Below, one piece after another: positions 14,605 to 31,094 of a stretch of DNA of 64,000 nucleotides (position 1 is the first letter of the stretch; the number at the start of each line of letters is the position of its first letter). The translations under genes were made by a program, and so were the position numbers. The notes beneath the pieces were generated by a model. The model was not told the DNA's origin. It was given only the letters and a program-made list of their open reading frames with translations, and searched no databases. The stretch comes from Bacteroidota bacterium (GTDB taxonomy: Bacteria > Bacteroidota > Ignavibacteria > Kryptoniales > JAKASW01). Location: assembly GCA_023381615.1 (NCBI GenBank), contig JAMCQL010000056.1:1-64000 (forward strand), in the 5' to 3' direction.

Positions 14605-14660
14605 TCTCTGAAAAGCACGGGTTACGACAAAATCTTAAAGAGTTATTGTTTGATGATATC

Positions 14661-14698: not shown

Positions 14699-14755
14699 AA
14701 AAGGAAAGGGCGCCCTGCGAAAATGGTTTCGCTCCGCCAAAGGTGAATCGGAACC

Positions 14756-14873: not shown

Positions 14874-15183
14874 TCCATTTTCGCAAGGGGAATTCCTGAG
14901 CTTGCAATTTGCAACAAAACTTGTCTCATTTGTCTGAGTTTTGATATATGAAGGTACCTAGAACTACATCTTATTATTGAATCTGGAAAGTGTGTTCACG
15001 TTTTGATCGTTTTCTCATCTCCAGGCTCCTCGTGCTTTGGTCACCTTTTTTATGAGTCAACTCGTCAATATCTTCAATTGTTGAAACTCCCACCAGGATC
15101 ACTTACATTTTACATCATCAAGGACTTACTCAACTGACACAGCAGACTAATAAATATGGCTGTTGATACTCACTTCTGAACCC

Positions 15184-18100: not shown

Positions 18101-18441
18101 ATGACGAAGAAATGAGCGCGCGCAGCGGTGGAAAAAATGATGCTTACATTTTGAAAAGACTCAGAGCTAAAGAAATCCGCGCATACCAAGGATTTACTGA
18201 AGACGACGAAAGTTACATCCAGCAGGCCATACAACTTTTGATTGACGGAGCTTTGCCGCGTCCGACTACCAAGAAAGTTGCAGAAGCGTTGAAAGATGAG
18301 ATTGAGCCGCTAAGAGTCTTGGGAATTCTCCGAAAAGACATTTCTGAATTGTTCTTCCAGCAAACAAGGTCACGAGCTGGTTTCAATTATCTCAGCCCTC
18401 GTGAAGTTATACTATCTTCTTATCTGATCGAGGAACAGTGA
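15184..18441 (+). CDS. PLD-nuclease/SNF2-type helicase of a restriction-like system
   Basis: Two-part defence enzyme. Residues 1-250 form a phospholipase D-like nuclease domain with HAKVYIM (around residue 143) and GSSNFTQSGL. Then comes a superfamily 2 helicase: Walker A DVVGLGKTYMA (around 285), box II FIDESHR (around 360), VSATPMNN (around 390), and a C-terminal lobe with IPWNPTRLIQRVGRVNRVD (around 770). ATG15184 is preferred over TTG15163; no strong ribosome site is visible. The architecture resembles DrmD-like helicases of DISARM and the helicase half of PLD-helicase/methyltransferase pairs, but no drmA, drmB or separate drmC is present. Two copies of a CACAGACA/TGTCTGTG hairpin lie in frame. 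The stop overlaps the methyltransferase start as GTGA. Confidence 0.9.
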   Translation: MNQPSSSPGLSSDLTFITNEAGKTLRDRFTVLLKDGTRFFDCLVGYFYISGFYKLYPVLENVEKIRVLVGLQTDRTTHELLEQNVQQGELSFKSHAEAKEKVSDEVLHELEKAEDNNNTELGIHKFTEWIRSGKLEIKVDPSEHLHAKVYIMTFGEGDRDKGRVITGSSNFTQSGLLDNLEFNVELKNRSDYEFALTKFNELWASAVDVTKSYEDTIANKSPYAHFTPYELYLKFLYEYFRGELNRPSELEDMYVPSNFKKLKYQEEAVLTARKILEEYGGVFLADVVGLGKTYMAALLAQQLHGRCLVIAPPHLLDKDKRGSWRNVFSDFQVRQTDFESIGNLAALLKRDVSKYENVFIDESHRVRTETTQTYEMLAQICRGKRVILVSATPMNNSPRDILSQVKLFQNGKNSTIPNLRNLEGFFSRLERNLKGLDRQKDRDLYFRAVESNAKETREKVLKYLMIRRTRKEIENHYGTDMKKQGLKFPDIEDPKPLFYKFNKLESSTFDETVRLLITQFKYARYKPLIYYEGKRDHKEREVQGQRNLAKFMQILIVKRLESSISAFRLTLERFIRSYERVLKEFRKGNVYISKEHINKIFELLEQDDMEAIDRLIEEDKAEKLNAKEFRGEFYQDLTSDLKILRHIHELWDKIKRDPKWEALKGILKGGTDIPVCDELKSNRIIVFTESKETAEYLTEKIAKSVDPKVIMFHGQAGEATHREVMSNFDANAFELRDNYRILVSTEALSEGVNLHRSNIVINYDIPWNPTRLIQRVGRVNRVDTKFDKIHTYNFFPTEEGNDLLKLREAAEAKIQAFIEMLGADARLLTEGEEIKSHDLFMKLNSRKTITGEDENEESELEYLTEIREVRDKQSDLFARIKHLPKKARSTRSNTDISVCAPPALLTYFRQDTLDKFFIVGASGPTATELDFFSTAKMLKPTDTNEKRLAMPNNFYELLDKNKKAFAVATSVTNDEEMSARSGGKNDAYILKRLRAKEIRAYQGFTEDDESYIQQAIQLLIDGALPRPTTKKVAEALKDEIEPLRVLGILRKDISELFFQQTRSRAGFNYLSPREVILSSYLIEEQ
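17193..17212. repeat. In-frame hairpin CACAGACA/TGTCTGTG, copy 1
   Basis: Eight-base perfect arms around TCCC, encoding TDIPVC in the helicase. The same arms recur at 17862. The surrounding protein reads naturally without it. Confidence 0.9.
17862..17881. repeat. In-frame hairpin CACAGACA/TGTCTGTG, copy 2
   Basis: Same arms as at 17193 around TCTC, encoding TDISVC. The reading frame relative to the hairpin is identical in both copies, 669 bases (223 codons) apart. Confidence 0.9.
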
Positions 18442-21400
18442 ACAAGGAACAAGCGCGAGATTTTGTAAGGCAAACCTTTACTCAAGCTTTCGACAAAGCT
18501 CGCTTCCTCGACTTCACGAAGAACCTTGTAAACCATCTCGATGAATCGAAAGCTGCCCCGATGCAAGTGCCGAATGCATTCAAGGCTCACATCCGCAGCT
18601 GCACGAGGCTTGGAACGTACAGATCGCCGCGGGGTGAGTTGGCAGACGTTCTCATCGTAAACACAACCGAGCCAGAAAAGATTGAGCGCACTCGAACCGC
18701 GCTGCGAGACTTTGTGGCGCACAAACTAAAGCGAGAAGAAGATTACAAAGAGGCAGGAATTGTTGCCTTCGTTTCTCCGGACGAACGAAACTGGAGATTT
18801 TCGTATATCAGAATGGAGTATCAATCGAAGCGCAATCCCGATACAGGAAAGATCGTCGCTGAGGAGCGAGTTACACCGGCCCGTCGATTTTCATACATAG
18901 TCGGCGAAGGTGAAAGCTGCCACACGGCGCAGTCTCGTTTCCTCAATCTTCTCCAGGATACAGACCACGATCCGAATCTCTCTGACATTGAAGAAGCCTT
19001 CAGCGTCGAAGTCGTCACAAAAGAGTTCTTCACACAGTACGTAAAGCTGTTTGAAAAGATCGACAACGCATTACAGAGACTGACGAAGAGAGACAAAACT
19101 GTAAGTGATGAGTTCAAGGCAAGAGTCATTACCACCGTTGACTTTGCAAAGAAGCTCATGGGCCAAATCGTCTTCCTATACTTCCTGCAGAAGAAAGGCT
19201 GGCTTGGCGTTGACAAAGGCAAAGAGTGGGGAACAGGTCCGCGAAGTTTCTTGAGACAGTTAGTGGAACAGGCTTCCAGCCGGTCTCCGTCAGTCAATAT
19301 CTTCAACGACCTGCTCGAACCCCTCTTTTACGATACCTTGGCAACCGACCGCGGCCACGAGGCATGGTGCAAGCAATTCAGTTGTCGAATTCCATTTCTT
19401 AACGGCGGACTTTTTGAGCCAGTCGCCAATTATGATTGGCAAAAGACCGACATCGCTTTGCCGAATCAGCTTTTCACAAACGATGAATATATCGAGGTCG
19501 GAGTCACGGGTACCGGTGTACTCGATGTGTTTGACCGCTACAACTTCACGGTCAACGAAGCCGAGCCGTTAGAGACCGAAGTAGCAATAGATCCTGAAAT
19601 GCTTGGAAAGGTCTTTGAAAATCTCATTGAGGAGAATCGCCGAAAAGGATTGGGTGCTTACTACACTCCCCGTGAGATTGTCCACTACATGTGCCAGGAA
19701 AGCCTCATCAATTATTTGGACAACGCGCTGAATGTAACTCAAGCTTCCAGCTTGAACAGCAGTAGTAGCAGCAACGCTTCCAGCTTGCCAAATACTTACG
19801 GCCATGATGGACTTTCTACCGGATTCTTTGATCCATTTGCATCCGTCGAAATCTCGCGACGCAATCTTCCGCATTGGCGGCAAGGTGGAGTGACGTACTT
19901 CGTAACATTCCGCCTTGCGGACTCTCTGCCGCAGGAGAAGCTCGAACAGCTCAGGATCGAACGAGAGAAATGGCTTAAGACTCACCACGAACCACTTTCA
20001 AACGCAGATAAGCAAGAATACTGGCGTCTATTTTCCAAAAAAGTCGAAGACTGGTTAGATGCGGGCATCGGGTCATGTGTTCTTCGTGACCCCAAAGTGG
20101 CGAAGATTGTGGCCGATGCGCTCCAACATTTCGATGGGGAACGTTACAAACTCGGCGAATGGGTTGTAATGCCGAATCATGTCCACCTGCTAGTTACGCC
20201 TAAGAATGGCCATGAGTTGACTGACATCCTCCACAGCTGGAAATCATTTACAGCCAACGAAATTAATGAACTCACAGGAGCGTCCGGCGCTTTCTGGCAG
20301 CATGAATCCTATGATCATATCGTCCGGAGTCAGGAGGAGCTTGAGCGGATCGAGCAGTACATTCGCGACAATCCGAGGAAAGCCGGAATAACTGTTGCGC
20401 AAGCTTCCAGCTTGGCAGGGACATCCGCTTCCAGCTTGAGACACGACCACGACCATGATGGTCGTTCTACTGGTCGTGCTACCGTTCCTCGCGAAGACAT
20501 CGAAACCTTTGTTCATCTTGGTGAGCAAATATCTCACTACGAATCGGTGAAGACAGCTTACGACATCAAGATGCCGAAAAGCATAAGGGAGAAAGCAAAA
20601 CTCATCGATGAGAAATTGAACGACATAACTGTCTGCGATCCCGCCGTTGGCTCCGGAGCGTTTCTTGTTATGATGATGGTGGAGATTGTCCGAGCGCGGC
20701 TTGCACTCACGCCATACTTCACTGATGTGAACGAGCGGACCCCCTATCACTTCAAGCGCCACGCGATACTCAATTCTCTCTACGGAGTTGACATCGATGC
20801 TGGTGCTGTTGAGATAGCGAAACTGCGTCTATGGCTATCACTCGTGGTGGACGAGGAAGACGTTAAGCAAATCAAGCCTCTCCCGAATCTCGATTACAGA
20901 GTTGTCGAAGGAAACTCGCTGATCGGACTTCCTGATGATGTGCTGCGAGATGCGCAGATCGAAAGTGAACTCGAACGCCTTAGAAAAAAGTTGGGCGATG
21001 AAACGGACAACGAGAGGAAAAGGGAATATCGCGAGGAAATCAAAAAGAGGGTGCAGCCGCTCTTAGATTCTGCAGAGCACTACGCTGGTTACAAAGTCAA
21101 CTTCGACTTCGGACTCTTTTTCAGCGAGGTGTTCCATGGTAAGGACGGGTTCGATATCGTTTTGGCGAATCCGCCCTATGTTCAAATCACCAAGGACAGA
21201 TTTCCGAAGCACGAAATTGAGGCATTTAAACGATTCAACGTTTACTGCTACAAGGCTGACCTTTATGAACTCTTTCTCGAAAGAACGGTTTATTTGCTTG
21301 GTCTACATGGTGTTGCTTCCTACATTACCCCAGTCGTGTGGCTCACCCTTCAGAATTGCGAACCCCTACGTAAACTACTTTTGAATAAAACTTCCATCAT

Positions 21401-22298
21401 TGAGATACGCGTCTGGGGAGACGGCGTTTTTGAAAACGCGGTTGTAAGTACTCAAACGGTTTTTTTTACAACGAACAAATTCAATCCAAAGATAAAGATA
21501 CGAACAGATTCGGGCGATAAATGGCTCGCGTTAGAACAAGTTCGGGGAAGCCATGAGTTACGAATTGACTTCCAAGGTACTGACAGCGAAGAGAGACTGT
21601 TAAGAAAAATAGAAGATAAGTGTAAGACGTTGGGGTCGCTCTGTGAAGTGTCCCAGGGCATTACACCCTACGACAAATACCGTGGCCATGATTCGAAGCT
21701 CATTTCTTCTCGTGGTTTCCACTCGAAGAAGAAGGTTAATAAAACATACGGTCCATGGATTGACGGCAGAGACATTACTCGGTACAAACTATTCTGGCGC
21801 GGCGAATGGCTATCCTATGGAGATTGGCTGGGAGCTCCACGGGAAGCCCGCTTTTTTACGAGTGACAAACTGCTCTGCCGCGAAGTCCCTGGCCCTGGCA
21901 AGCGAATTCAGGCCACGTTTCACTCGGGAACTATTTATTGCGGTCACGCAATTAGCCCCGTAATCGGCAGGACAGAAAAACAAGCGAACCTGAAATTCCT
22001 ACTGGGTCTCATCAATTCGACGTTGGTCAGTTGGTATGCAGGGTTACGATGTCCAAACTTTGCAAAGGACGTATTTCCAAAGCTCAATCCCAGCGACATC
22101 AAACAGATTCCCGTTCCCATTGCATCATCCGAAAAGCAAAAGCGAGTAGAACGCTTAGTCGACCATATTCTCACCACGAGGCGGCGCAACGCCGATGCCG
22201 ATACAAGCGCCATTGAGCGCGAGATCGACCAGCTTGTGTACCAGCTTTATGGTTTGACGGAAGAGGAGATAAAGATCGTGGAGGGAAAGGCTACGTGA
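18438..22298 (+). CDS. Eco57I-type adenine methyltransferase (restriction-like) with an inserted RAYT domain
   Basis: Large N6-adenine methyltransferase working with the upstream helicase, either to mark host DNA or as part of a type IIG-like enzyme. GTG18438 overlaps the helicase stop. Residues 1-430 are the N-terminal region ending in LGAYYTPREIVHYMCQES, typical of this family. Residues about 435-683 are a foreign block carrying a complete REP-associated tyrosine transposase. Methyltransferase sequence then resumes with motif I TVCDPAVGSGAF (about 732-743) and motif IV VLANPPYVQ (about 908-916), a target-recognition region and the tail EIDQLVYQLYGLTEEEIKI. Without the insert the protein would be about 1,040-1,065 residues. 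The frame is open throughout. Whether the insert is tolerated, spliced around or inactivating cannot be told from sequence. Confidence 0.9.
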   Translation: MNKEQARDFVRQTFTQAFDKARFLDFTKNLVNHLDESKAAPMQVPNAFKAHIRSCTRLGTYRSPRGELADVLIVNTTEPEKIERTRTALRDFVAHKLKREEDYKEAGIVAFVSPDERNWRFSYIRMEYQSKRNPDTGKIVAEERVTPARRFSYIVGEGESCHTAQSRFLNLLQDTDHDPNLSDIEEAFSVEVVTKEFFTQYVKLFEKIDNALQRLTKRDKTVSDEFKARVITTVDFAKKLMGQIVFLYFLQKKGWLGVDKGKEWGTGPRSFLRQLVEQASSRSPSVNIFNDLLEPLFYDTLATDRGHEAWCKQFSCRIPFLNGGLFEPVANYDWQKTDIALPNQLFTNDEYIEVGVTGTGVLDVFDRYNFTVNEAEPLETEVAIDPEMLGKVFENLIEENRRKGLGAYYTPREIVHYMCQESLINYLDNALNVTQASSLNSSSSSNASSLPNTYGHDGLSTGFFDPFASVEISRRNLPHWRQGGVTYFVTFRLADSLPQEKLEQLRIEREKWLKTHHEPLSNADKQEYWRLFSKKVEDWLDAGIGSCVLRDPKVAKIVADALQHFDGERYKLGEWVVMPNHVHLLVTPKNGHELTDILHSWKSFTANEINELTGASGAFWQHESYDHIVRSQEELERIEQYIRDNPRKAGITVAQASSLAGTSASSLRHDHDHDGRSTGRATVPREDIETFVHLGEQISHYESVKTAYDIKMPKSIREKAKLIDEKLNDITVCDPAVGSGAFLVMMMVEIVRARLALTPYFTDVNERTPYHFKRHAILNSLYGVDIDAGAVEIAKLRLWLSLVVDEEDVKQIKPLPNLDYRVVEGNSLIGLPDDVLRDAQIESELERLRKKLGDETDNERKREYREEIKKRVQPLLDSAEHYAGYKVNFDFGLFFSEVFHGKDGFDIVLANPPYVQITKDRFPKHEIEAFKRFNVYCYKADLYELFLERTVYLLGLHGVASYITPVVWLTLQNCEPLRKLLLNKTSIIEIRVWGDGVFENAVVSTQTVFFTTNKFNPKIKIRTDSGDKWLALEQVRGSHELRIDFQGTDSEERLLRKIEDKCKTLGSLCEVSQGITPYDKYRGHDSKLISSRGFHSKKKVNKTYGPWIDGRDITRYKLFWRGEWLSYGDWLGAPREARFFTSDKLLCREVPGPGKRIQATFHSGTIYCGHAISPVIGRTEKQANLKFLLGLINSTLVSWYAGLRCPNFAKDVFPKLNPSDIKQIPVPIASSEKQKRVERLVDHILTTRRRNADADTSAIEREIDQLVYQLYGLTEEEIKIVEGKAT
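19740..20476 (+). mobile_element. RAYT (Y1_Tnp) element in frame inside the methyltransferase
   Basis: A REP-associated tyrosine transposase of about 190 residues (19828-20394). It shows TYFVTFRLADSLP, the HUH pair in MPNHVHLLV and the candidate nucleophile Tyr in HESYDHIVR; EQYIRDNPRKAGI closes the domain. It is flanked by related direct repeats, 19740-19822 and 20400-20476. Each contains CAAGCTTCCAGCTTG, then CGCTTCCAGCTTG, then CCATGATGG. The first landmarks are 660 bases apart and the others 651, all multiples of three, so recombination between repeats would restore an uninterrupted methyltransferase. All catalytic residues expected for this family are present. No in-frame ATG opens the domain, so it is probably made only as a fusion. 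Confidence 0.92.
22221..22290 (+). repeat. Methyltransferase-tail repeat, reference copy 1
   Basis: This is the genuine 3' end of the methyltransferase gene, encoding EIDQLVYQLYGLTEEEIKI and then VEGK. Its last bases GGAGGGAAAG double as a ribosome site for the next gene, whose GTG overlaps the stop (GTGA at 22295). Seven further full or partial copies follow, each in front of another accessory gene. Confidence 0.95.
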
Positions 22299-23095
22299 CC
22301 AGAATACAGAAATTGCTTGAGATTGACGAGAGAATATTTTCTACCATAGACTCACGAATGGAGGAAGTGCAGCAATCGTTAACGAGGACTGATGAACCTC
22401 ACATTGCACTATATTTGATTTGGCGGTTTGCGGTTAAGATAGGAGGCATGAAAGAATCAACGAAAATGCTTTTCACGGAAGGGGATCCATATTCAGCCCG
22501 CATCCTAGCTCGTTCTATCATCGATCATTACTATAAGCTGCTGTACTTCTGTATCAGGCACTCCACTGAAAAGAATGACGATGTGGCCGATGAGTACCTT
22601 ACTTATTGTGATATAAGCGAGTATTTAGAATACTATAAGCCTCTTGACAGCAAAAGCACCAAAGAGAAGGAAGAGCAAGACAAGGCTTGGAATCTACTAT
22701 TACAGATGAATCCAGATTTGGGTAATGCAGATCGGAATAAATCGATCACTATCTCGAAGAAATTTCGGCTGAGAGAGATCGCACGATACGTCGATTCTGT
22801 TCTTCCAAAAGGTGCTGGGAACAAAACTCTCTCCAAGGAGAAAGACATTGTTCCAACATACTCTTTTCTTTCAAGTTTTGTTCACGGTGGAGCGTTTGCT
22901 GAGAAATACTATTCACCGCTTCGATCAAAGGATCAAAATGTTGAGGAAGATGATTATACCATACTTCATGAATCAATAGGGTACTCTTACAGTGCAATTG
23001 AGCTAATGTTTATGAGCTTTGCATTAACTGATGAGAAATTGTTTACATACGCCACTGACCTGAAAAATGAGATGATCGCGCTAGTTGATCCATGA
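22295..23095 (+). CDS. Accessory protein, DUF5677-like, cassette 1
   Basis: A soluble, mostly helical 266-residue protein. The core ARSIIDHYYKLLYF and the later SFVHGGAF with a helical end resemble the DUF5677 family, which has helix-rich proteins of unknown function with conserved Arg and His; this assignment is from pattern memory only. GTG22295 overlaps the methyltransferase stop. The gene ends 65 bases before the next cassette, in a spacer that holds tail copy 2. A role accessory to defence is inferred from position alone. Confidence 0.6.
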   Translation: MTRIQKLLEIDERIFSTIDSRMEEVQQSLTRTDEPHIALYLIWRFAVKIGGMKESTKMLFTEGDPYSARILARSIIDHYYKLLYFCIRHSTEKNDDVADEYLTYCDISEYLEYYKPLDSKSTKEKEEQDKAWNLLLQMNPDLGNADRNKSITISKKFRLREIARYVDSVLPKGAGNKTLSKEKDIVPTYSFLSSFVHGGAFAEKYYSPLRSKDQNVEEDDYTILHESIGYSYSAIELMFMSFALTDEKLFTYATDLKNEMIALVDP

Positions 23096-23110
23096 CCGGA
23101 TACTATGCAT

Positions 23111-23160
23111 GAACTTAGTGAGCTGACTGAAGAGGAGATAAAGATCGGGGAGGGAAAAGA
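23111..23160 (+). repeat. Methyltransferase-tail repeat, copy 2 (partial)
   Basis: Encodes ELSELTEEEIKIGEGKE and stops; it matches the last two thirds of the tail. AGGGAAAAG again serves as ribosome site, and the stop overlaps ATG23161 as ATGA. Confidence 0.9.
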
Positions 23161-24064
23161 ATGAATTCGACTCCCATCAAGAGAAGGGTCAACCACTACG
23201 TGCCAAAGTTCTACCTAAACGAATTTGCAGATCCAAATGATAAATCCAAAGAACCTCGCTTTTGGTGCTATGATACTGAGAACCAAACACTAAGAAAGAT
23301 TGCCACATCAAAAGTTGCAAAGATAAAAAACTACTATCGTCTATACGATAATGGTGTGATCCATGATGCTTTAGATGATGCGTTATGCCACTTTGAAAGT
23401 GAGGCGGCACCAATTTTTAGAAGGCTAAGAGATGAAACCTTAGAATTTAATGATGTGCATCTGCGTTATCAATTTGGGCGTTTTGTTTGCTTTCTTCTCG
23501 TGAGAACACCTCAATTCCAACAGCACACAAGACTCCACTTTCAAAACCAGGCGAAATCCCGCCTGATAGAGCATTTGAGTAAGGATAATAATCTCGAAAA
23601 AGCGGTTGCTGAGTTAAATAAAAAGGGGAGCGGAGGATTTACCGAACGAGAGTTCATAGAGGGGTTCAATAAGTTGAAGATCAATCTTCATCCTGGTCCG
23701 TTTCAGCTCGTTTTGCTCAAATCTGCCCAGCGCATGATCTTGCATTTTTTGTAAAATGAAGTGGGCCTTTCTAATATCTGAGCCGGCATTCCCTTACATA
23801 ACCTCAGATGCCCCAGTCTCTATTTATGATCCGGACCAGACTGATCCATCCATTTGGTATGGGTATGAAAAGCGAAGGGCGCGATTCATTTTCCCAATCA
23901 ATCGAAACCTTTGTTTGGAGGCAACGTGGGCCGGAAAAGAAGGATATTTCCACGTAGATAGGGATGCCGTTTTTGAGACAAACGCACTTATAGCGTCTCA
24001 CGCTTTGAGGTACGTGTTCTCACCTACTCAATATCCTATGAGTGTCAGAGTTGCGACTTTTTGA
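23161..24064 (+). pseudogene. DUF4238 protein split by a one-base frameshift, cassette 2
   Basis: The first frame (23161-23754) starts with RVNHYVPKFYLNEFAD, the N-terminal signature of DUF4238 proteins, which are of unknown function and often found near defence genes. It ends in a run of six T at about 23745-23750. The next frame (23756-24064) continues with MKWAFLISEPAFPYITSDAPV, the normal DUF4238 C-terminal half. Removing one T joins both halves into about 300 residues. The break is therefore a homopolymer insertion: a real mutation, a slippage site or an assembly error. Confidence 0.8.
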
Positions 24065-24108
24065 AAATGCGGAGACAACCCTTGGGGGCAGATGAAAACT
24101 CGAACAGC

Positions 24109-24232
24109 GAGGTCGACAAGCTTCTGTACCAGCTTGCAGTGAATCCCTCCCTTGGCGGGAGCTTGACGGAGGAGGAGATTCGGCCTGAGGCTGATGCGCC
24201 TCTGGCGCAAAAGATCGTGGAGGGGAAAGCAT
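24109..24232 (+). repeat. Methyltransferase-tail repeat, copy 3, with two in-frame hairpin inserts
   Basis: Tail segments VDKLLYQL, SLTEEEI and KIVEGKA are separated by two inserts, about 24136-24162 (CTCCCTTGGCGGGAG core) and about 24181-24210 (CAGAGGCGCA-type symmetry). The frame stays open through both. AGGGGAAAG precedes ATG24231, which overlaps the stop as ATGA. Confidence 0.85.
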
Positions 24233-24818
24233 GACCGACACATTCCTTGCCTGTGCGACAATTTGGGAGTTGCTCTCTAAAGTGGGCATTGCGAATTGGA
24301 TTGCCGTCAGCGCACTATTGTTCTCTGTTTTGACCTTTATCTTCAGCCGCAGGTTCCAGCGAAAAATAATTCGACTGGAAAAGGAATCAATTTGGTTCAG
24401 GCATTTGGTGGTTGAACCGCACTTCCAAGACATAGAGAATTTCTACCGGCAAGCAGCTGGCATACTTGTTCAAGTAAAAGACCAAATTAACAGGCATTTC
24501 GAGGCTGGCAAACGCAGCGAGGACCTTGAGCCATCACTACGCCCACAAATAGTTCTGGAGAGGCTCGCTGACTGTGTCAACGACTTTGGTGCTCGATTCC
24601 TCAACATTGTCCAAGCCGTGCAACCGAAATGCGCCGAAAAACTGGAGGCCATACTAGAAGAATTACGACGGAAGGCTGGGGAGCATCTGGATAACCTTGT
24701 CAACGGAGGGAAACCAATTCGTAACACATATCTGTTGCAATTGCTCGCCAAGAGTCGAATTGAATTTATCCATGTACTTTATGAACATGAAACGAAATAT
24801 TTAGAAAGACAACTGTGA
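24231..24818 (+). CDS. Hypothetical single-pass membrane protein, cassette 3
   Basis: 195 residues. One N-terminal transmembrane helix (about residues 20-40, ANWIAVSALLFSVLTFIF) is followed by basic residues and a long cytoplasmic helical or coiled-coil region rich in Arg, Glu and Lys. No family is recognised. The start ATG overlaps the stop of tail copy 3. The membrane topology would suit an effector or sensor of a defence system, but that is only a guess from position. Confidence 0.6.
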   Translation: MTDTFLACATIWELLSKVGIANWIAVSALLFSVLTFIFSRRFQRKIIRLEKESIWFRHLVVEPHFQDIENFYRQAAGILVQVKDQINRHFEAGKRSEDLEPSLRPQIVLERLADCVNDFGARFLNIVQAVQPKCAEKLEAILEELRRKAGEHLDNLVNGGKPIRNTYLLQLLAKSRIEFIHVLYEHETKYLERQL

Positions 24819-24914
24819 CTTTGTCGATAAGTCCAGACGGTCACCACACAATGAAAAGCAAAGGCAATTAGGTTGGATACCAACTTGGCGAAAAAGTTCA
24901 TCGTTACGATTCGC

Positions 24915-25059
24915 GAGATCGACCAGCTTGTGTACCAGCTTGTCCCGAGGGGACTCCTTTGGAGGAGTTTATCCCGCCCTTGGCGGGAGCTTGACGCCTG
25001 CCCGCCGAAGCGAAGTGCAGGCGGGGAAGAAGAGATAAAGAACGTGGAGGGAAAAGAAG
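24915..25059 (+). repeat. Methyltransferase-tail repeat, copy 4, with hairpin inserts
   Basis: Begins EIDQLVYQL exactly as in the methyltransferase. It is then interrupted by GTCCCGAGGGGACTCC-type, CCCGCCCTTGGCGGG and CCTGCCCGCC/GGCGGG hairpins and resumes EEEIKNVEGKE. The frame is open from 24873 to 25067. GGAGGGAAAAG precedes ATG25060. The stop falls 8 bases into the next gene rather than as ATGA. Confidence 0.88.
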
Positions 25060-25815
25060 ATGCTTGAGCAGCTCATTCCGATCTTCGTTGGTCGCGACAG
25101 TCGCCTCAGAGAACTTGGGGAAGGGATCTTGAAGTTCATTCTGACCTCAATCATGGCGATCGGTTCTTGGAAGACTATGTACCAACCAGCCTTTGACTTG
25201 AAGAGTGCGAATGTGCAGTCATTGATTCAATTCATTTTTACATCCCCTTTTCTTCTTTTGTGTGCATTCTTCATCTTTTATTGGTATCTGTTTTATTCGA
25301 TTCTACCACTTTTCATCTATGGATATTTCTTGCGCATGATGGCGCGGCTATTCTCTCCTGCTTCAAGTAATCGAGCTTCACAAACCAAAGCCCCGAAGCC
25401 GCCATCGAAATTTGGCCTCGCAGTGTTGGGGATTTTCATTAAGTTTGGGATATTATCGAAAACCGACCAAACAATCAGCCTTGGCCCGCTCCTTCCACTT
25501 TTAATGTCGCGAATCAAGAAGACGTTCGCATCTGAGAAGTTGGAGTCACTCAATTCTGAATTCACTTCTCCTTTCGTAACATTTCAGTTCATGATTGTCT
25601 ATTATGGATTCATTTGCCCTTCTTTGTCTGTCCCTTTGTTCTGGACGATCCTCTTCACGCTTTTTGCAATTCCTCTGCTTGTCTCAGGACTTGTAACAGA
25701 ACTCATTGTACGACTTCTCCGACTTCTAGGTGATCAACTGATTCAAATTCTTGAAGCTCAAACGCAGCCAGATAAAGTGGGACAGCCGATCGGAAGGGTA
25801 GGAGGGCAACCGTGA
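25060..25815 (+). CDS. Hypothetical multi-pass membrane protein, cassette 4
   Basis: 251 residues with at least three hydrophobic stretches, around residues 50-95 (SLIQFIFTSPFLLLCAFFIF) and around 175-215, separated by a Lys/Pro-rich loop. No family is recognised. The start is set by tail copy 4 with a good ribosome site. The C-terminus is polar. Downstream, 118 bases carry degenerate sequence and tail copy 5. Confidence 0.6.
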   Translation: MLEQLIPIFVGRDSRLRELGEGILKFILTSIMAIGSWKTMYQPAFDLKSANVQSLIQFIFTSPFLLLCAFFIFYWYLFYSILPLFIYGYFLRMMARLFSPASSNRASQTKAPKPPSKFGLAVLGIFIKFGILSKTDQTISLGPLLPLLMSRIKKTFASEKLESLNSEFTSPFVTFQFMIVYYGFICPSLSVPLFWTILFTLFAIPLLVSGLVTELIVRLLRLLGDQLIQILEAQTQPDKVGQPIGRVGGQP

Positions 25816-25892
25816 TTTGTATGGTCTTGATTACTTCGCCTGCCAGTTTGTTGAAGGGCCAATCTTTCTGCAGAAATAGTCCCGCATCCTCC

Positions 25893-25933
25893 ATGAATTT
25901 GACGGAAGAGGAGACGAAAGCCATGAAGAAAGA
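25893..25933 (+). repeat. Methyltransferase-tail repeat, copy 5 (short, degenerate)
   Basis: Encodes NLTEEETKAMKKE, related to the LTEEEIKI part of the tail, with the stop overlapping ATG25934 as ATGA. It is the most diverged copy; the ribosome site is reduced to AAGAAAG. Confidence 0.6.
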
Positions 25934-27136
25934 ATGAAACTTTCGTCAGATTTTGAAGCGCTGAGGCAACTCGTTTCTCAGAAACCGAGCCATCTTCTCG
26001 ATGAATCTTCCGCGGCAAAGATCTTGTTAGAACGATTTGATACATACTGTGCAGACCTCGCCTCAATTAATGTGAACTCCGTATTGGAGGAATGGAAAAA
26101 CGTGTTTGCTGATCGCGATGTACCATCATTAACCGAAGTAGAACTGAACAGGGGAATTGAGTTGCAGACAACCCTTGAGTGGTACGAGCGATGCGACACC
26201 GAAAGAGTAAAATTGGTCCTTACTTTAGCCGCTTTGACCTTCTTCGTTCAGAACAAAACTCGTAACGAAATACTGAACGAGCTCTCGGCTGCGGAATGGA
26301 TAACTCAGCACGAAGTGTTGACACGATGGGGATGGATGATAAGCCAAAAAATCATGAAAGAAGAGCAGAATGCTGATTTCAATTATTTGTATCAATGTGA
26401 AGTCGGCGAAAGGGATGGTAGGCAAAACTTAGATAGAGAATTTTACACTTTTCTTCATTTTCTTCCGAAGTATTGTGAGCAAACAAAGACAATGTTTCTT
26501 TTCCTCGAAAAAGGGGAATCCCCAGATTTCGTGATCATTGATCAAGGTCAGAATAAAATCGGGATCGAAGTTACAGAAGCTCCGCTCAATGCAACTCACG
26601 CCTACGAACAAAAAGAGAGAGAAAGGTTTTTCATAAATCTTAGGAATCAACTCAGCGATCTTCCTTGCTCCGTCACTTTGCTGGCAAGGCCTGATCCATT
26701 ATGGTCAGGGTTAAACAAGGATTTGGCAAGCCAATTGCCCTCTATGATTTCTGCCATCAAGAGTGCCTTGTCAACTATTCCATCAGAAAACGATCGGCGC
26801 GTCAAAGTGCGAGTGCAAGGATTTGTGTTTAACATTAAACAGAGTGACTCGTTTGAAATGGGGTGGGATTTGAGCGAGCCTGAGTATTATGGTGATTTTC
26901 CAGAGAAATTGTTTTCAACGGCGGTTTCTGCTGCGGTCAAGAAAAAACTGCGCAAGAAGGTACCTGAAATAAGACCATGCATTCTCGTGGTGTACGCGAA
27001 CACTGGTTTGATTGGTGTCCATCATGCTAAAACCGCGTCTTTGATTCGTGCAATCGTTTCTGAGGAGAAAATCTCAACTCATTTCGATCAGGTTTACTTT
27101 TCGACAGATCAAGAATGTATAGGAGTTATCCCATGA
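25934..27136 (+). CDS. Putative nuclease-like protein (PD-(D/E)XK-like motif), cassette 5
   Basis: 400 residues, no firm family. The N-terminal half is helical. Around residues 195-215 the string GESPDFVIIDQGQNKIGIEV has the spacing of a restriction-nuclease core (PD, then a beta strand, then Glu-x-Glu/Thr), although the usual terminal Lys is not in place. A further motif CSVTLLARPDPLW follows. It could be a solitary restriction enzyme or a degenerate relative. The start is set by tail copy 5. The gene is followed by 139 bases containing tail copy 6. Confidence 0.6.
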   Translation: MKLSSDFEALRQLVSQKPSHLLDESSAAKILLERFDTYCADLASINVNSVLEEWKNVFADRDVPSLTEVELNRGIELQTTLEWYERCDTERVKLVLTLAALTFFVQNKTRNEILNELSAAEWITQHEVLTRWGWMISQKIMKEEQNADFNYLYQCEVGERDGRQNLDREFYTFLHFLPKYCEQTKTMFLFLEKGESPDFVIIDQGQNKIGIEVTEAPLNATHAYEQKERERFFINLRNQLSDLPCSVTLLARPDPLWSGLNKDLASQLPSMISAIKSALSTIPSENDRRVKVRVQGFVFNIKQSDSFEMGWDLSEPEYYGDFPEKLFSTAVSAAVKKKLRKKVPEIRPCILVVYANTGLIGVHHAKTASLIRAIVSEEKISTHFDQVYFSTDQECIGVIP

Positions 27137-27152
27137 TGGTCCAAGACCCAAT

Positions 27153-27211
27153 GGCTTATGTACCAGCTTTATGTATATCGGAAGATGAGATAAAGATCGT
27201 TGAGGGGAAAA
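27153..27211 (+). repeat. Methyltransferase-tail repeat, copy 6
   Basis: LMYQLY then a one-base deletion, then GATGAGATAAAGATCGTTGAGGGG. The ribosome-site end leads to ATG27211, which opens only a 13-codon frame, so the gene once placed here seems lost; tcmP starts 65 bases later. Confidence 0.85.
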
Positions 27212-27275
27212 ATGCGCAACAATTCAGTCGCTGAAAATGTTGATTACGTTTAAGTTCAAAGTACGAGGTTAGGGT

Positions 27276-28394
27276 ATGCCTATAAGAGATATTTTTGATA
27301 AACCGTTTGATGACGGCACTATAGTCAAGCTTGAAATATTTCAAAAGTACTTCGAGGAATGGCTGCCGGTGTTCGTAATGTCGCGAAATCCCAAACCGAT
27401 CCAAGTTTTTGATCTCTTTGCTGGTAGCGGGTACGACCAGAATCATGTTCCAGGCAGCCCGATAAGAACTCTCGAAGTCATAGCTAAACATCGAAGAATT
27501 CTTGCACAAAAGAAAAAACAGGTTTTCGTTTTTCTCAACGACGCAGATTCACAAAAAATTGAGCAACTCAGAATTAACATCGAGCAAAAGGTCAAGGATT
27601 TGTCTATACAGTCCATGGTCGTAACACAATTTTCCGCGAGAGATTTTCGTGACAGCGTGCTTAACGATCACACCAAAGAATTGAAGAGTGGAAACAACTT
27701 AATCTTTATAGATCAGAATGGATTTAAGGAAGTGAACGAGCAACTGTTCCAGTTTTTGATGAGTCTAGACACAACGGATTTTATATTTTTCGTTTCTTCA
27801 TCTTATGTTCACAGATTTCCTGACGAACCCGAAGTCCGACGCCATCATCCTCGATTTGATTTTGATAAGATAAAGAATACGTCATGGAAAAAAGTCCACA
27901 ACGTTGTTTGCGATGAATTCAGACGGTACGTGCCATCAAACGTAAAAAGATATTGGATCATACCGTTCTCCATTATGAAACCTGACATGGTTAACATTTA
28001 TGGACTCATTGCCGTCACGAAACATCCTTTGGGCGCCGACAAATTTCTGAATGCCGCATGGAAGGAAAATGCTCTAAACGGCAACGCTAACTTTGACATC
28101 GAAGAAGAAGAAAAAAAGAAACAAGGCGATTTCTTTAAGCCAAGGACGCTGACCAAAATAGAGAGCTTTCAACTGATGCTTCAGGAGTTAATTCTCAAGC
28201 GCAATATCAAGAATAATTCAGATGCGTATTATTTGACGCTGGATGAAGGTCACATAGGCAAACACGCCAATGAAAAAATTATGGAGATGAAACGGGACAA
28301 ATTGATAACTTTTGATAGTCCATCTTCATTGGTAAATTATAAAAAGGTTGAGAAGGAAAAACGTATCATAGAATATAAGCTGGTCAAAAAATGA
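27276..28394 (+). CDS. tcmP: Three-Cys-motif partner protein TcmP
   Basis: 372 residues matching the TcmP family, known from gene neighbourhoods in which it sits beside a Gp37/Gp68-type three-Cys protein; it has that neighbour here. Features are FDLFAGSGYDQNHVPGSPIRTLE (N-terminal nucleotide-binding-like loop), VFVFLNDADS and NLIFIDQNGFKEV, reminiscent of a methyltransferase fold with a DPPG-like site. The C-terminal 100 residues look like a winged helix. The function is unknown; a defence or DNA-modification role is suggested by context. Its last 4 bases overlap the DUF5131 start. Confidence 0.8.
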   Translation: MPIRDIFDKPFDDGTIVKLEIFQKYFEEWLPVFVMSRNPKPIQVFDLFAGSGYDQNHVPGSPIRTLEVIAKHRRILAQKKKQVFVFLNDADSQKIEQLRINIEQKVKDLSIQSMVVTQFSARDFRDSVLNDHTKELKSGNNLIFIDQNGFKEVNEQLFQFLMSLDTTDFIFFVSSSYVHRFPDEPEVRRHHPRFDFDKIKNTSWKKVHNVVCDEFRRYVPSNVKRYWIIPFSIMKPDMVNIYGLIAVTKHPLGADKFLNAAWKENALNGNANFDIEEEEKKKQGDFFKPRTLTKIESFQLMLQELILKRNIKNNSDAYYLTLDEGHIGKHANEKIMEMKRDKLITFDSPSSLVNYKKVEKEKRIIEYKLVKK

Positions 28395-29158
28395 AGAGGA
28401 CCAAGATTGAGTGGACGGAAGCCACCTGGAATCCGTCTGTAGGATGCAATAAAGTCTCTGCCGGTTGTAAATTTTGTTATGCTGAAGTGATGGCAAAGCG
28501 GCTAAAAGCAATGGGAAATAAAGATTATGAGGGTGGATTTAGGTTTAAGATTTTGCGTCACAGATTGGAAGATCCATTAAGAACAAGAAAGCCTACAAAG
28601 TTTTTTGTCAATTCGATGAGTGACTTGTTTCACGAAAAGATGCCTTATGAATTTCTTGACGAAATTTTTAAAGTAATCGAAAATACTCCTCGTCATATCT
28701 ACCAAATACTGACTAAGCGCGACGAAATAATGCTCGACTATTTTTCCCGTCGTTTGAGGCGAATCCCTCAAAATGTTTGGTTAGGTGTCACGGTAGAAAA
28801 CTCCAAGGTTAAGGATCGAATTGATACTCTGAGACAAATAAATGCAGCAATTCGTTTTATTTCCTTTGAGCCTTTAATAGATTCAATCGGGGCGGTTGAT
28901 TTGACTGGTATTCAATGGGCAATAGTGGGTGGTGAATCCGGGGCTAATGCACGACCAATTAAACAGAATTGGGTCGATGAAATATTCCAGCAATGTAAGC
29001 AGCAAGAAGTTGCCTTTTTCTTTAAGCAATGGGGTACTTGGGGTGCGGACGAAAAGAAGCGAAACAAAAAAGCAAATGGCAGATTATTCAGAGGGAAACT
29101 TTGGGATGAGTATCCAAAAGCGGCGGAGAAAAGTAAGGTTCAGTCCACACTTTTCTAG
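28391..29158 (+). CDS. DUF5131 / phage Gp37-Gp68 family three-Cys protein
   Basis: 255 residues beginning KIEWTEATWNPSVGC, then CKFCYAEVMAKRL. The cysteines in GCNKVSAGCKFCYA have the C-x6-7-C-x2-C form of this radical SAM-like family. The C-terminal segment WAIVGGESGANARP and WVDEIFQQC followed by FFFKQWG is also characteristic. ATG28391 overlaps tcmP, confirming the expected gene pair. The family occurs in phages and defence islands; its reaction is not known. Confidence 0.88.
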   Translation: MKRTKIEWTEATWNPSVGCNKVSAGCKFCYAEVMAKRLKAMGNKDYEGGFRFKILRHRLEDPLRTRKPTKFFVNSMSDLFHEKMPYEFLDEIFKVIENTPRHIYQILTKRDEIMLDYFSRRLRRIPQNVWLGVTVENSKVKDRIDTLRQINAAIRFISFEPLIDSIGAVDLTGIQWAIVGGESGANARPIKQNWVDEIFQQCKQQEVAFFFKQWGTWGADEKKRNKKANGRLFRGKLWDEYPKAAEKSKVQSTLF

Positions 29159-29418
29159 TTGGGTGTGTTCCGACCAAGTTTGCCGAGTTCCCGACCTCGA
29201 GGTTTGAGGTGGAGACTGCTACGGGCTCAAGATTGTTCCATAAAAGCAACAAGTCCGCCGAAGCGGACTTGATTGCTGACTGGGGACACCCCGATCCTGA
29301 ATTCCCAGGGGACTTGTTCACAAATCCCAATAGTAATATGCAATTACGCTATCCGCTTTGCAACCGATTGTGGTCTCGATATCGAAGCCGATATTGCCGA
29401 AAACATTGCGAAACTAGG

Positions 29419-29474
29419 TTCAAGCTTTATGGCTTCACGGAAGAGGAGATAAAGATCGTGAAAGGTGAAACGAA
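29419..29474 (+). repeat. Methyltransferase-tail repeat, copy 7, with upstream remnant
   Basis: Encodes FKLYGFTEEEIKIVKGE, with the stop overlapping GTG29475 as GTGA. The 260 bases before it (29159-29418) hold an open frame from 29209 that runs into the tail but resembles nothing, plus a GTCCGC/GCGGAC palindrome near 29250; this looks like debris. Confidence 0.88.
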
Positions 29475-29753
29475 GTGAAGCTGCCCAATCTTGACAAGAC
29501 GGTCATTGACCGTGAGAAAATTGTGGAGTACCTTCTCAACGCCGTGCATCCCGACAACGGTGGTAAGTCTGCATTTTTCGAATCGCTTGGCTTCAATCGG
29601 GACAATTGGCACGCACTTGCCACCTCCTTGCGTCAGTTGGCAGAAACAACGGAGATCACCAAAATCATGGAATCGACGCATGGCGTCAAGTACATTATAG
29701 ACGGCTACATCGAGTCGTCTAACGGCAAAAAGGCGATGGTACGCATGATTTGA
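29475..29753 (+). CDS. DUF6883 domain protein, cassette 7
   Basis: 92 residues: KLPNLDKTVIDREKIVEYLL then HPDNGGKSAFFESLGF, the pattern of DUF6883. Such proteins are commonly followed by a DUF4926 gene, as here, and resemble toxin-immunity or toxin-antitoxin type pairs. GTG29475 overlaps the tail-copy stop. The function is unproven. Confidence 0.75.
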   Translation: MKLPNLDKTVIDREKIVEYLLNAVHPDNGGKSAFFESLGFNRDNWHALATSLRQLAETTEITKIMESTHGVKYIIDGYIESSNGKKAMVRMI

Positions 29754-29842
29754 TTGTTGACCGCAAATCGGAGATCTCGCCCGCGGGACAAGATGCGCCG
29801 CGTTTGGTTACGGTGTATCCACACAAAGAGTGAGAGCACATT

Positions 29843-30073
29843 ATGATTAATGAACACGAACGAATAGTGTTGAAAGCTGCAATTCCGGCAGAGGGATTGG
29901 AAGCCGGTGATGTGGGAACAGTGGTTCACGTTTACCGGGACGGTCTCGCTTACGAAGTCGAGTTCACCACACTGGGTGGTGACACAGCCGCGGTCGTGAC
30001 GGTGGAGGCCTCACAACTGCGGCCAGTCAGCAAGCGTGAGATCACCCATGCTCGTGAACTGGCTACTAAGTAA
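29843..30073 (+). CDS. DUF4926 domain protein
   Basis: 76 residues with a small SH3-like beta-barrel: GLEAGDVGTVVHVYRDGLAYEVEF followed by a second strand group ending VTVEASQLRPV (quoted parts are motif anchors). This is DUF4926, the usual partner of DUF6883. It starts 89 bases after the preceding gene without a tail repeat, so the two form one cassette. The ribosome site GAGAG is weak. Confidence 0.78.
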   Translation: MINEHERIVLKAAIPAEGLEAGDVGTVVHVYRDGLAYEVEFTTLGGDTAAVVTVEASQLRPVSKREITHARELATK

Positions 30074-30143
30074 TATCCATATTTTTGTCGGAACGATCCT
30101 TCGGATAGGTAAACGGGGCAACGGACGTGAACATAGCGGGTCC

Positions 30144-30195
30144 GAGATCGACCAGCTTGTTTATGAGCTTGTCCCAAAGGGACTCCTTTCCAGAT
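30144..30195 (+). repeat. Methyltransferase-tail repeat, copy 8, truncated by hairpin
   Basis: EIDQLVYEL is intact, then a GTCCCAAAGGGAC hairpin like that in copy 4 takes over. The frame stays open to TGA, which overlaps ATG30194 as ATGA. Confidence 0.85.
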
Positions 30196-30388
30196 GAAGG
30201 CGATTATGCACGTGAAGGTAACTCTTCGAATAACTAATTCTGACTGCCAACGGCTCACTGATGCAACACGCAAGACTGCAGCTCGTGACCTTGACGATTT
30301 GGTGAAGAAAGGTTTGTTTGTAAGAAAGGGAACACGTCGCGGTGTTCATTACGTATTTCTCTCTCGGCTTAATATGAGACAGAAATGA
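30194..30388 (+). pseudogene. Winged-helix fragment (Fic/AAA_4-type C-terminus), cassette 8
   Basis: 64 residues. CQRLTDATRKTAARDLDDLVKKGLFVRKGTRRGVHYV is a winged-helix of the kind ending many Fic or AlbA_2 proteins (only the motif is given; it spans residues 17-53). The rest of such a protein is missing, so this is probably a remnant carried in by the last cassette. Alternatively it is a small DNA-binding regulator. Confidence 0.55.
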
Positions 30389-30727
30389 GACATATGGGAC
30401 GTTCGAAAACGTTACCAGAGGGAGGCATCACTAAGGATTTCATGATATTGGGCATTTATCAAACAGACAATCCAACTTCGGTGCCGGAGCACCTGTGCCT
30501 GCTCGTGTTCCCGACACAGTGAAGTTTGTTCGTGATTTCGTGAATCATCTTTTGGAGGGTATGTGTTTGTGGATGAGTCTGGGGGCAATGATCTCAGTCA
30601 GCGTGCCTCTAACATGGCGTTGAAAAGTCCACCTTTGTTACAGATGAAGCAATCTCGCTTTTACCTCCCTTGTTCCCTTTTGGTGGTTTTGAAGATAACC
30701 CCAGAGATTTTAAATTGATTGTGTTAA
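30389..30727 (+). other. Right end of the island, no convincing gene
   Basis: Contains a 42-codon open frame at 30394-30522 that matches nothing recognised and no tail repeat. It ends at the terminator before tatA. Confidence 0.5.
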
Positions 30728-30760
30728 GGCGCGTTGAATTGTCAAAGCGCCGCTTTTTTC
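30728..30760 (+). terminator. Rho-independent terminator at the island's right end
   Basis: GGCGC (30728-30732) pairs with GCGCC (30747-30751), followed closely by six T (30754-30759). It separates the island from tatA-gatA. Confidence 0.65.
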
Positions 30761-30823
30761 AAATGTGTTTCTGGTAAACAAACTTTAAAGAAGCCCGCAG
30801 TGGCGGGCTCCGGAGTATGAAAG

Positions 30824-31087
30824 ATGCTTGAGGACCTGAGTATTGGTAAGATTCTCTTAATTCTTTTGGTCGTCGTGATTTTTTTCGGCCCCAAACGAAT
30901 TCCTGATATTGCCCAGTCAATCGGCAAAGGAATAAGAGAATTCAAGAAAGCGATGCGCGATGTGCAGGATGAGATTCAGAAGCCGGTTACCGAAGAACCG
31001 AAGGCGACTGCAACTAAGATGATCGAGTCTTCTACGCCGTCTGTCACGAAGACCGATTCCCAATCGACTACCGAATTAAAGTCTTAA
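30824..31087 (+). CDS. tatA: Third TatA-type subunit
   Basis: 87 residues: hydrophobic ILLILLVVVIFFGPKRIPD, then GKGIREFKKAMRDVQDE, then a Lys/Thr/Ser tail. It is very close to the tatA ending at 14012, including at the DNA level in the GATGTGCAGGATGAG region. The pair therefore looks like neighbours that were separated by insertion of the 16.7 kb island. gatA follows 7 bases later. Confidence 0.92.
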   Translation: MLEDLSIGKILLILLVVVIFFGPKRIPDIAQSIGKGIREFKKAMRDVQDEIQKPVTEEPKATATKMIESSTPSVTKTDSQSTTELKS

Positions 31088-31094
31088 AAGAATT

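Follow-up and report, generated by a model that had tools for sequence, protein, structure and literature searches.

The DNA analysed here, called the window, is a stretch of 64,000 nucleotides (nt) from a bacterium of the Bacteroidota (Ignavibacteria, Kryptoniales), positions 1 to 64,000 of contig JAMCQL010000056.1 in GenBank assembly GCA_023381615.1. It carries a gene for a type IIG-like methyltransferase (MTase) whose 3′ end recurs downstream, in full or in part, ahead of one gene or gene pair after another. In what follows, the recurring segment is called the tail, a tail copy standing apart from its MTase gene an orphan, the gene or genes behind a tail a cassette, and the whole an array.

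The methyltransferase locus and its tail copies

Eight tail copies lie within 8 kb of the window, all on the + strand: the MTase’s own 3′ end (22221–22298, its last 78 nt) and seven orphans. They are found near 22221, 23107, 24109, 24915/25020, 25899, 27143, 29420, and 30144, with another gene behind each. The first-pass annotation, made from the letters of the window, had described eight full or partial copies in 8 kb, each before another gene, and searches of the own genome and with pieces of the tail bear this out. A 27-nt piece from the 5′ part of the tail is matched at 20–27 of its 27 bases at five copy sites (18/27 at 61713), and a 24-nt core at 17–24 of 24 bases at seven copy sites (17/24 at 60918 and, on the − strand, at 53677). 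The best matches in 200 Markov-shuffled strands are 20/27 and 19/24. By the shuffle measure alone, the 5′ piece at 27143 (20/27) and the cores at 24163 and 25020 (17/24) and at 25899 (19/24) are not significant. The own-genome search backs the weak pieces, as follows: 27154–27209, E = 1.4e-11; 25025–25054, E = 3.6e-6; 24107–24135, E = 2.8e-4. The pieces at 27143, 24163, and 25020 are carried by other tail parts or by own-genome matches. The weakest copy is that at 25899 (17 identical bases, E = 0.08), which is supported by its position and its ATGA.

Seven stop–start overlaps of the ATGA or GTGA form had been counted among the eight copies in the first-pass annotation; the overlap is exactly 4 nt in six, the start at 25060 overlaps the stop of orphan tail 3 by 8 nt (ATGCTTGA), and the copy at 27143 has no overlap with the gene starting at 27276. 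The frame of this last copy, orphan tail 5, itself starts on an ATG that overlaps the previous stop (ATGA). The ribosome site, kept in most copies according to that annotation, is present as GGAGGG ahead of the next start in four of the eight and, by reading, as the variant GAGGGG in a fifth. In the copies at 24109 and 24915, an insertion with a palindrome splits the tail and leaves it in frame. Inserts resembling repetitive extragenic palindromes (REP) and sharing CCTTGGCGGGAGC occur at about 24136–24162 and 24942–25024 of the window and at about 8312–8338 of the reverse complement of L011, a second allele discussed below; the tail frames are unbroken.

Table 1. Features of the array and its upstream neighbour in the window (aa, amino acids; ORF, open reading frame).
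Feature	Position	Strand	Remarks
PLD + SNF2 helicase gene, upstream of the MTase and overlapping it	15163..18441	+	Pfam PLDc_2, SNF2-rel_dom, Helicase_C; PADLOC C3a139 HKD+Snf2, 5.9e-44
Type IIG-like Eco57I/TaqI_C MTase, anchor gene of the array	18438..22298	+	Pfam Eco57I, TaqI_C; PADLOC REase_MTase_IIG, 2e-237
Tail copy 0, MTase 3′ end	22221..22298	+	Stop/next start overlap GTGA; left breakpoint vs. L011 at 22288
Cassette 1, DUF5677 protein	22295..23095	+	Pfam DUF5677, 2.9e-10; not at this place in L011
Orphan tail 1, mini-ORF from ATG 23105	23105..23164	+	94% over 23124–23157; ATGA overlap with next gene
Cassette 2, DUF4238 protein	23161..24064	+	Pfam DUF4238 in both parts; homologue in the L031 array
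Orphan tail 2, in-frame palindrome-bearing insertion at ~24136–24162	24067..24234	+	90% over 24107–24135; ATGA overlap
Cassette 3, 195-aa protein (membrane protein by eye)	24231..24818	+	No family match
Orphan tail 3, in-frame insertion between ~24942 and 25024	24873..25067	+	8-nt overlap with next gene; right breakpoint vs. L011 at 25025
Cassette 4, 251-aa protein (membrane protein by eye)	25060..25815	+	No family match; homologues in L011 (two) and L012
Orphan tail 4, core only, weakest copy	25893..25937	+	ATGA overlap
Cassette 5, 400-aa protein	25934..27136	+	No family match
Orphan tail 5, gapped alignment to MTase	27133..27234	+	88% over 27154–27209
Cassette 6, three-Cys-motif partner TcmP (27276–28394) and DUF5131 (28391–29158)	27276..29158	+	TIGR04474, 1.6e-37; DUF5131, 1.1e-101
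Orphan tail 6, tail-like 29423–29478 in an 89-aa open frame	29209..29478	+	95% over 38 nt; GTGA overlap
Cassette 7, two small ORFs (29475–29753, 29843–30073)	29475..30073	+	Identical in L011
Orphan tail 7, 5′ part only (30143–30170)	30036..30197	+	89% over 28 nt; ATGA overlap
Cassette 8, 64-aa ORF	30194..30388	+	Identical in L011

The TaqI_C domain of the anchor MTase ends, in Pfam, 60 aa short of the C-terminus. Type IIG enzymes are single-chain MTases in which a nuclease region at the N-terminus is joined to a specificity domain at the C-terminus; family scans of this protein reported no nuclease family in its N-terminal region. A REP-associated tyrosine transposase lies in frame inside the MTase ORF, at 19733–20473 (Y1_Tnp, 5.9e-9; NF047646, 1.5e-19, below its cut-off); direct repeats flank the insert, which the L011 allele also carries. 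In the search of the window’s own genome, G000, two other tail copies stood out, one at the end of another MTase on contig C60 (E = 3.7e-9) and a weak one on C84 (E = 0.04), which by reading belongs to an MTase that lacks its middle. Among the cassettes, the sixth is the PADLOC candidate PDC-M30 (PDC-M30A, 1.5e-116; PDC-M30B, 6e-114), and for cassettes 3–5 neither Pfam nor PADLOC nor NCBIfam yields a family at E 0.001. Cassette 2 is split by a stop codon into ORFs 23161–23754 and 23756–24064, with a DUF4238 match in each.

Probable exchange between alleles and among archaeal arrays

Cassette content was compared between near-identical alleles of the locus. L011, on contig C60 of genome G002, matches the window at 99.97% over 14836–22288 and at 99.90% over 25025–32725. 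Between these flanks, the window has the DUF5677, DUF4238, and 195-aa genes, and L011 has a 46% paralogue of the 251-aa cassette and a gene for a 380-aa HNH protein. The cassettes differ, and both breakpoints, at 22288 and 25025, lie inside tail copies. Given the low identity between G002 and the window’s genome in a test region (see below), the L011 contig is either transferred DNA or a mis-binned relative, and is a second allele of the locus either way. A dispersed repeat of about 119 nt, at 41866–41984 of the window, has seven G002 sites 92–100% identical to it and is possibly a non-autonomous mobile element.

Three types of MTase tail, A, B, and C, can be distinguished in this genus, and some orphans combine them. 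The L011 tail before its 251-aa cassette is type C in its 5′ half (score 93, best A 32); its 3′ half scores 74 with the L011 MTase end, 48 with the window MTase, and 45 with the best B. This 3′ half is better called cassette-specific because two paralogous cassettes begin alike, which accounts for part of the score of 74. For the L011 tail ahead of the HNH gene, the 5′ half is of type A (66, C 19) and the 3′ half comes closest to C (61; B 53, A 47). The 251-aa cassette of the window has a tail with an A-type 5′ half (60), and behind the type B MTase of L012 stands an orphan of type C (113 vs. 67). Chimeric tails, as we read them, are explained by crossovers inside tails.

Archaeal arrays show the same arrangement. 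A tail profile, A3, was run on 246 genomes of the phylum of array L058 and found matches in 90 of them, including G477 and G478, which had supplied rows of the profile. Among the 150 matches listed, 77 are in frames of at most 150 aa, 65 in frames of at least 400 aa, and 8 between; fragmented assemblies can make a cut MTase resemble an orphan. Three of the fetched arrays (L129–L131) are on contigs of 2.5–2.8 Mb. The archaeal arrays hold the same cassettes in differing orders. In L132, five tails enclose four cassettes. Each of the four also opens the array behind a complete MTase in some other genome (L141 and L145, L134, L144, and L137), and the blocks of homology (84–91%) start and end mostly in tails. 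Over the archaeal comparisons, 22 of the 43 ends of blocks of at least 700 nt fall in a tail in both arrays; tails, extended by 40 nt on the upstream side and by 15 nt past the stop, cover 12.7% of the array span (binomial p = 1e-9, for ends that are not independent, cassettes being common to several blocks).

Two loci have layouts of their own. In L128 (reverse complement, 6439–7925), four orphans follow one another about 455 nt apart and no gene is evident in the gaps, which looks like the tandem duplication of a unit that includes a tail. In L138 (reverse complement, 3412–14875), from the genome of L073, an MTase is followed by seven short, diverged orphan matches over 11 kb, and the genes between the tails encode pentapeptide, DUF4145, TPR, and SAP proteins and a Y1 transposase.

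We propose that in these loci the 3′ end of the gene for a type IIG-like MTase is the docking point of a cassette array and that the cassettes are probably exchanged by crossovers within tail copies, the conserved C-terminus serving as the homology arm. What points to this is the duplication of tails, the allele pair with its breakpoints in tails, the chimeric tails, and the cassettes shared between arrays in blocks that often end in tails. The unit would be one small gene or gene pair, in many cases of defence type, with a copy of the conserved C-terminal coding segment on either side; these copies are at most about 220 nt long and end at or near the stop codon. Crossovers inside tails would let cassettes enter, leave, or change place, as follows. 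Incoming tail–gene–tail DNA could recombine with a resident tail; exchange through two tails would swap cassettes; and one crossover with a unit that is circular or duplicated would bring in a cassette and leave a further tail. Since the C-terminus is common to MTases of this class, the scanned cargo contains no integrase, and the crossover points are scattered, we infer that ordinary RecA-type homologous recombination would be the driver. The window tails may also act as mini-ORFs that couple the translation of each new gene to that of the preceding one, and the array would allow a genome to stack immunity genes behind a single MTase operon.

Extent, distribution, and coding character of the tails

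To define the repeated segment, each MTase at 71 loci was cut into 90-nt tiles, which were sought up to 9 kb downstream. The last tile recurs at 10 loci (nine without L106, a locus set aside below), the second at 5, and the third at 3; tiles 3–24 together have a downstream match in 3 of 1,562 tile–locus pairs (with L106 included, Fisher p = 3e-12). What this search found repeated downstream is confined to the last 270 nt or less of the MTase gene. A downstream copy of the 3′ end follows 10 of the 71 MTases (nine without L106) vs. 7 of 419 other ORFs of at least 300 aa at the same loci (p = 2e-5, with L106), and four of those seven, of 86–90 nt at 92–95%, may reflect neighbouring paralogues. 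Counted from the MTase stop, near which they end, the copies start at −26 to −221, with the fuller ones starting at −145 to −221. The DNA query for these alignments held 20 nt past the stop, and a trivial self-match (score 40) was removed. Among 53 aligned copies, no 5′ end lies beyond −221, with the query reaching to −400. This limit is near the junction of the conserved C-terminal helices with the variable specificity domain, so that the copied part is the part these MTases share.

The 5′ limit bears on the proposal that tails are fossils, left by the tandem insertion of entire modules, each an MTase with its accessory genes, from which the MTase bodies were afterwards lost. MTases that have lost their middle and keep an N-terminus and a tail do occur, and the same cassette can stand behind a full MTase in one genome and behind an orphan in another. 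But the MTase body is almost traceless in the tile search; the 5′ ends of the 53 copies stop by −221, and in some arrays the previous stop abuts the tail. Moreover, pN/pS between orphans, the ratio of nonsynonymous to synonymous change, is 0.38 for stop-free tails, not near 1. We consider stacked remnants unlikely. The middle-deleted MTases, L010/L030 (G000:C84, near 41825) and L142 (5843–6406, reverse complement), have about 110 N-terminal aa fused to the tail; the one in G000:C84 has a gene of GxxExxY type (by eye) behind it.

Tail copies were sought downstream of related MTases in other genomes and are present in many phyla. A degenerate tail pattern, allowing up to 2 mismatches, matched 45 of the 149 genomes scanned, with 102 matches vs. 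10 in the reversed control; by manual count, 12 of the 149 have at least two same-strand matches within 6 kb. Twenty fetched stretches were scanned for tails and 12 of them read gene by gene. Genes and tails alternate in most of the 12, L018 having no orphan and L017 no full MTase. A homology search with seven MTases gave 542 loci; among the best 80, which come from many bacterial and archaeal groups, a tail could be placed in 78, of which 13 have a downstream orphan scoring above 20 (maxima over 1.3 Mb of control, 12.9 reversed and 12.4 antisense). L042, added by a DNA match, brings the number to 14 of 78, and L035 and L066 are contigs already among the 20 stretches above. By their titles, the 14 belong to Ignavibacteria, Bacteroidetes, Verrucomicrobia, Akkermansia, Chloroflexi, Phycisphaerae, WOR-3, Stahlbacteria, Vicinamibacteraceae, Nitrospirae, Methanosarcinales, Methanomicrobia, and Methanotrichaceae. 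The Stahlbacteria contig, L073, may be mis-binned, since blocks of 84–95% identity are common to it and the archaeal arrays. In the phylum of the window, 77 of 296 genomes have a tail match, with 41 of the 119 matches in frames of at most 150 aa and 70 in frames of at least 400.

Plasmid relatives number 246 records, all below 60% identity, and in most among the matches listed the C-terminus was not reached; there are 10 phage records. Twelve loci on viral contigs have no clear orphan; nine of the loci are frames of 982–1262 aa, and three are shorter (241, 397, and 466 aa), two of these running off the stretch.

Most array-bearing genomes are metagenome-assembled, which might suggest chance, composition, or assembly error as the source of the tails. 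Most copies, however, score far above the shuffled, reversed, and antisense controls, and arrays also occur on the megabase contigs mentioned above. An artefact is hardly credible.

The differences between orphans and the local MTase tail are mostly synonymous (pN/pS 0.30, 33 copies). In the archaeal set, for tails free of stops and gaps and with pairs that are not independent, pN/pS is 0.27 between MTases, against the 0.38 given above between orphans. Divergence is highest at third codon positions (0.237, vs. 0.123 and 0.099 at the others). These values fit tails that arrived from other working MTases or were refreshed by recombination, and do not fit long neutral decay. Because orphans differ from the local MTase about as much as MTase tails differ among themselves, cassettes probably bring a donor’s tail along. 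The first-pass annotation had genes added repeatedly by recombination at the tail, a copy being left behind each time. The allele breakpoints in tails, the tail copies behind related MTases in many phyla, and the archaeal cassettes that often end in tails speak for the first part of that claim, so that both comparisons proposed with it came out in its favour; as to the second, orphans are not simply local copies, some deriving from other MTase families or being chimeras.

The same annotation had expected immediate translational coupling, and for the window this stands, with six exact overlaps in eight. Elsewhere the overlap is not enriched. Exact overlap of tail stop and next start is found in 8 of 44 orphans across phyla vs. 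14% in a random-stop control, itself inflated by stops inside genes, and in 10 of 59 in the archaeal set with L039, L058, and L073. Coupling as a general rule was rejected on these counts and is a local refinement. At the 5′ side, 16 of the 53 aligned copies begin within −5 to +12 of the upstream stop, seven of these with exact overlap, and the mini-ORF orphans of L019, L022, and L058 use an internal ATG of the MTase that overlaps the previous stop as TAATG. Internal stops are present in 6 of 33 orphans, and some orphans have no in-frame start codon. Frame-preserving indels gave no support for selection on the frame: 5 of 56 alignment gaps are multiples of three and 51 are not, for gaps whose placement is unreliable. 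A Shine–Dalgarno-like 5-mer is found in the last 27 nt of 29 of the 78 MTases (5% per segment elsewhere). The idea that codons are chosen to form a ribosome site was examined and rejected, GAG being hardly favoured at the glutamate of the (I/V)VE motif (30 GAG, 35 GAA; overall 2,170 and 3,164); the amino acids may therefore explain the 5-mer.

These data also bear on the idea that the tail is a selected leader for coupling, or a small peptide, recopied as each new gene needs it, with recombination incidental. The window overlaps, the TAATG starts, the in-frame insertions, and the low pN/pS are in keeping with it. Yet the overlap is not enriched outside this genus, startless and stop-bearing orphans occur, most gaps break the frame, and the low pN/pS may date from the donor MTases. 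A leader function as the cause of the repeats is, in our judgment, distinctly unlikely.

The cargo of other arrays includes TIR, DUF3800, DUF559, PDDEXK_3, RelE/MqsA, NucS-like, GmrSD, Schlafen, and HicA/HicB proteins, a HATPase with a STAS-like protein, RhuM, SIR2-like, DUF6414, HEPN-like (weak), pentapeptide, and TPR proteins, and many cassettes without a family match; toxin–antitoxin and nuclease genes are thus represented. In L058 and L073, genes of GajA and GajB type, of the Gabija system, stand behind a TIR cassette, an assignment made from gene order and from two unnamed matches each among 71 proteins. In and around arrays, 68 proteins were scanned singly with Pfam (8 + 40 + 20), and the 71-protein set was judged by its 25 commonest families. 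Among the 68 there is no tyrosine or serine recombinase and no integrase (IntI), other genes around the arrays not having been scanned. This bears on site-specific integration, in which a recombinase encoded elsewhere would recognise the MTase 3′ end and duplicate its site at each insertion. Elements of this kind do insert in tandem and leave the 3′ end duplicated at every junction. The scan, however, found no such enzyme in the cargo, and no fixed core site is evident, divergence being highest at third positions and the chimeras switching at different points. We regard site-specific integration as very unlikely.

Weighing the proposed cassette exchange and its relation to known systems

Several observations weigh against exchange by crossovers in tails. 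Recombination is deduced from sequence, and none was observed directly. Within an array, the longest stretch that two tail copies share exactly can be 66 nt, but in 10 of 22 arrays it is shorter than 25 nt, which is little for RecA at present. The middle-deleted MTases are what a model of stacking and deletion predicts. The exact overlaps, as counted above, are not enriched across phyla or in the archaeal set. Of the 43 archaeal block ends, 21 are not in a tail in both arrays. For L011, assembly errors at repeats are conceivable, and G002 is only about 71% identical to G000 at 38000–44000 (stated contamination, 5%). TcmP homologues occur in 8 of 394 other genomes, and none of the fetched stretches, some of them short (one reaching about 300 nt upstream only, one a contig of 4.7 kb), shows a tail. 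Lastly, three Y1 (IS200-like) transposases are among the 68 scanned proteins, in L106, inside the L138 array, and behind the orphan-less MTase of L018, and a Y1 domain lies within the window MTase. A role of transposition is possible, and because Y1 transposases were found, our confidence in homology-driven exchange is slightly lowered.

It could be supposed that transposition of the Y1 type (IS200-like or REP-associated) copies tail ends or brings in cassettes, with the REP-like palindromes in window tails 2 and 3 as its traces. The L106 repeats adjoin Y1 transposase sequence, as this supposition would have it. Set against it, the Y1 transposases are just 3 of the 68 proteins, one of them outside any array, and most copies are 40–220 nt of coding tail with no palindrome by eye, no systematic palindrome search having been made. 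We hold a transposition origin to be highly improbable. In L106 (5813–7088), the MTase end is followed by a Y1 transposase gene in both complete and truncated form, enclosed by 35-nt repeats that consist of the MTase 3′ end and a palindrome; the transposon may have copied the tail end there. L106, counted at first on its DNA matches, was set aside as an array, its repeats holding a palindrome and adjoining transposase sequence.

The tail as part of the accessory gene was also considered and was rejected for TcmP. A DUF5131-like neighbour is beside TcmP in 7 of 8 genomes (L126 left out), and in L120 an HsdM-like gene (by reading) precedes the pair. Since the TcmP homologues lack a tail in the fetched stretches, the tail belongs to the array, not to the gene.

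In integrons, small cassettes are strung together with a repeat at their boundaries and are exchanged from genome to genome, and the MTase arrays are like them in this. They differ in that no integrase (IntI) is among the 68 proteins scanned, from part of the ORFs around the arrays, and in that the repeat is the coding 3′ end of an MTase gene rather than an attC-type site, as judged without modelling attC structure. Elements such as SCC (staphylococcal cassette chromosome) in rlmH, and those whose integrases act at tRNA genes, insert in gene 3′ ends, and the 3′ end is duplicated at each element boundary. The likeness is again in the duplication of a conserved gene’s 3′ end at unit boundaries; in contrast, the MTase arrays have no tyrosine or serine recombinase in the scanned cargo, their units are of one or a few genes, and their repeats are longer and diverged.

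The orphan toxin–immunity modules of contact-dependent inhibition (CDI) and Rhs systems are likewise tandem, displaced 3′ modules behind an anchor gene. According to the parts of the account consulted, many orphan pieces keep anchor-homologous sequence, and homologous recombination could fuse an orphan to the anchor (PMC4927057). There, the anchor is a large exported toxin whose C-terminus is exchanged; here, it is an MTase with its own C-terminus, whose very 3′ end is copied and followed by a separate gene. The arrays also resemble the defence genes embedded in restriction–modification (RM), BREX, and Hma operons, from which the PADLOC PDC families come by guilt-by-embedding, in that accessory defence candidates lie in an RM operon: PDC-M30A/B in the window and GajA/GajB, TIR, Schlafen, GmrSD, HicA, RelE/MqsA, and SIR2-like genes elsewhere. 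In one paper, the gap between hsdS and hsdR is called a potential recombination hotspot (PMC12255303); the sections consulted on such embedded genes mention neither tail copies nor cassette boundaries. A search by titles and abstract openings, with preprints outside its scope, found no published description of MTase-tail cassette arrays. The array works like CDI/Rhs orphan arrays and integrons, with the defining features of neither.

It is tempting to go further and propose an integrase-free, homology-driven “defence integron” in bacteria and archaea, in which the shared C-terminal segment of type IIG-like MTases would be a universal homology arm, tail-bounded immunity genes would circulate between MTase loci, and the tail can couple translation. 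On this wider proposal we are evenly divided.

How defence genes are gathered and moved is an open question, and many islands have no evident vehicle. In the arrays described here, the boundaries of units can be read in the sequence, so that gains, losses, and exchanges can be counted in any genome with such an MTase. The tail can also guide searches, in that genes flanked by two tails, such as the family-less cassettes 3–5 of the window, are candidate defence genes. Finally, the array makes it testable whether a coding segment serves as a homology-driven integration site.

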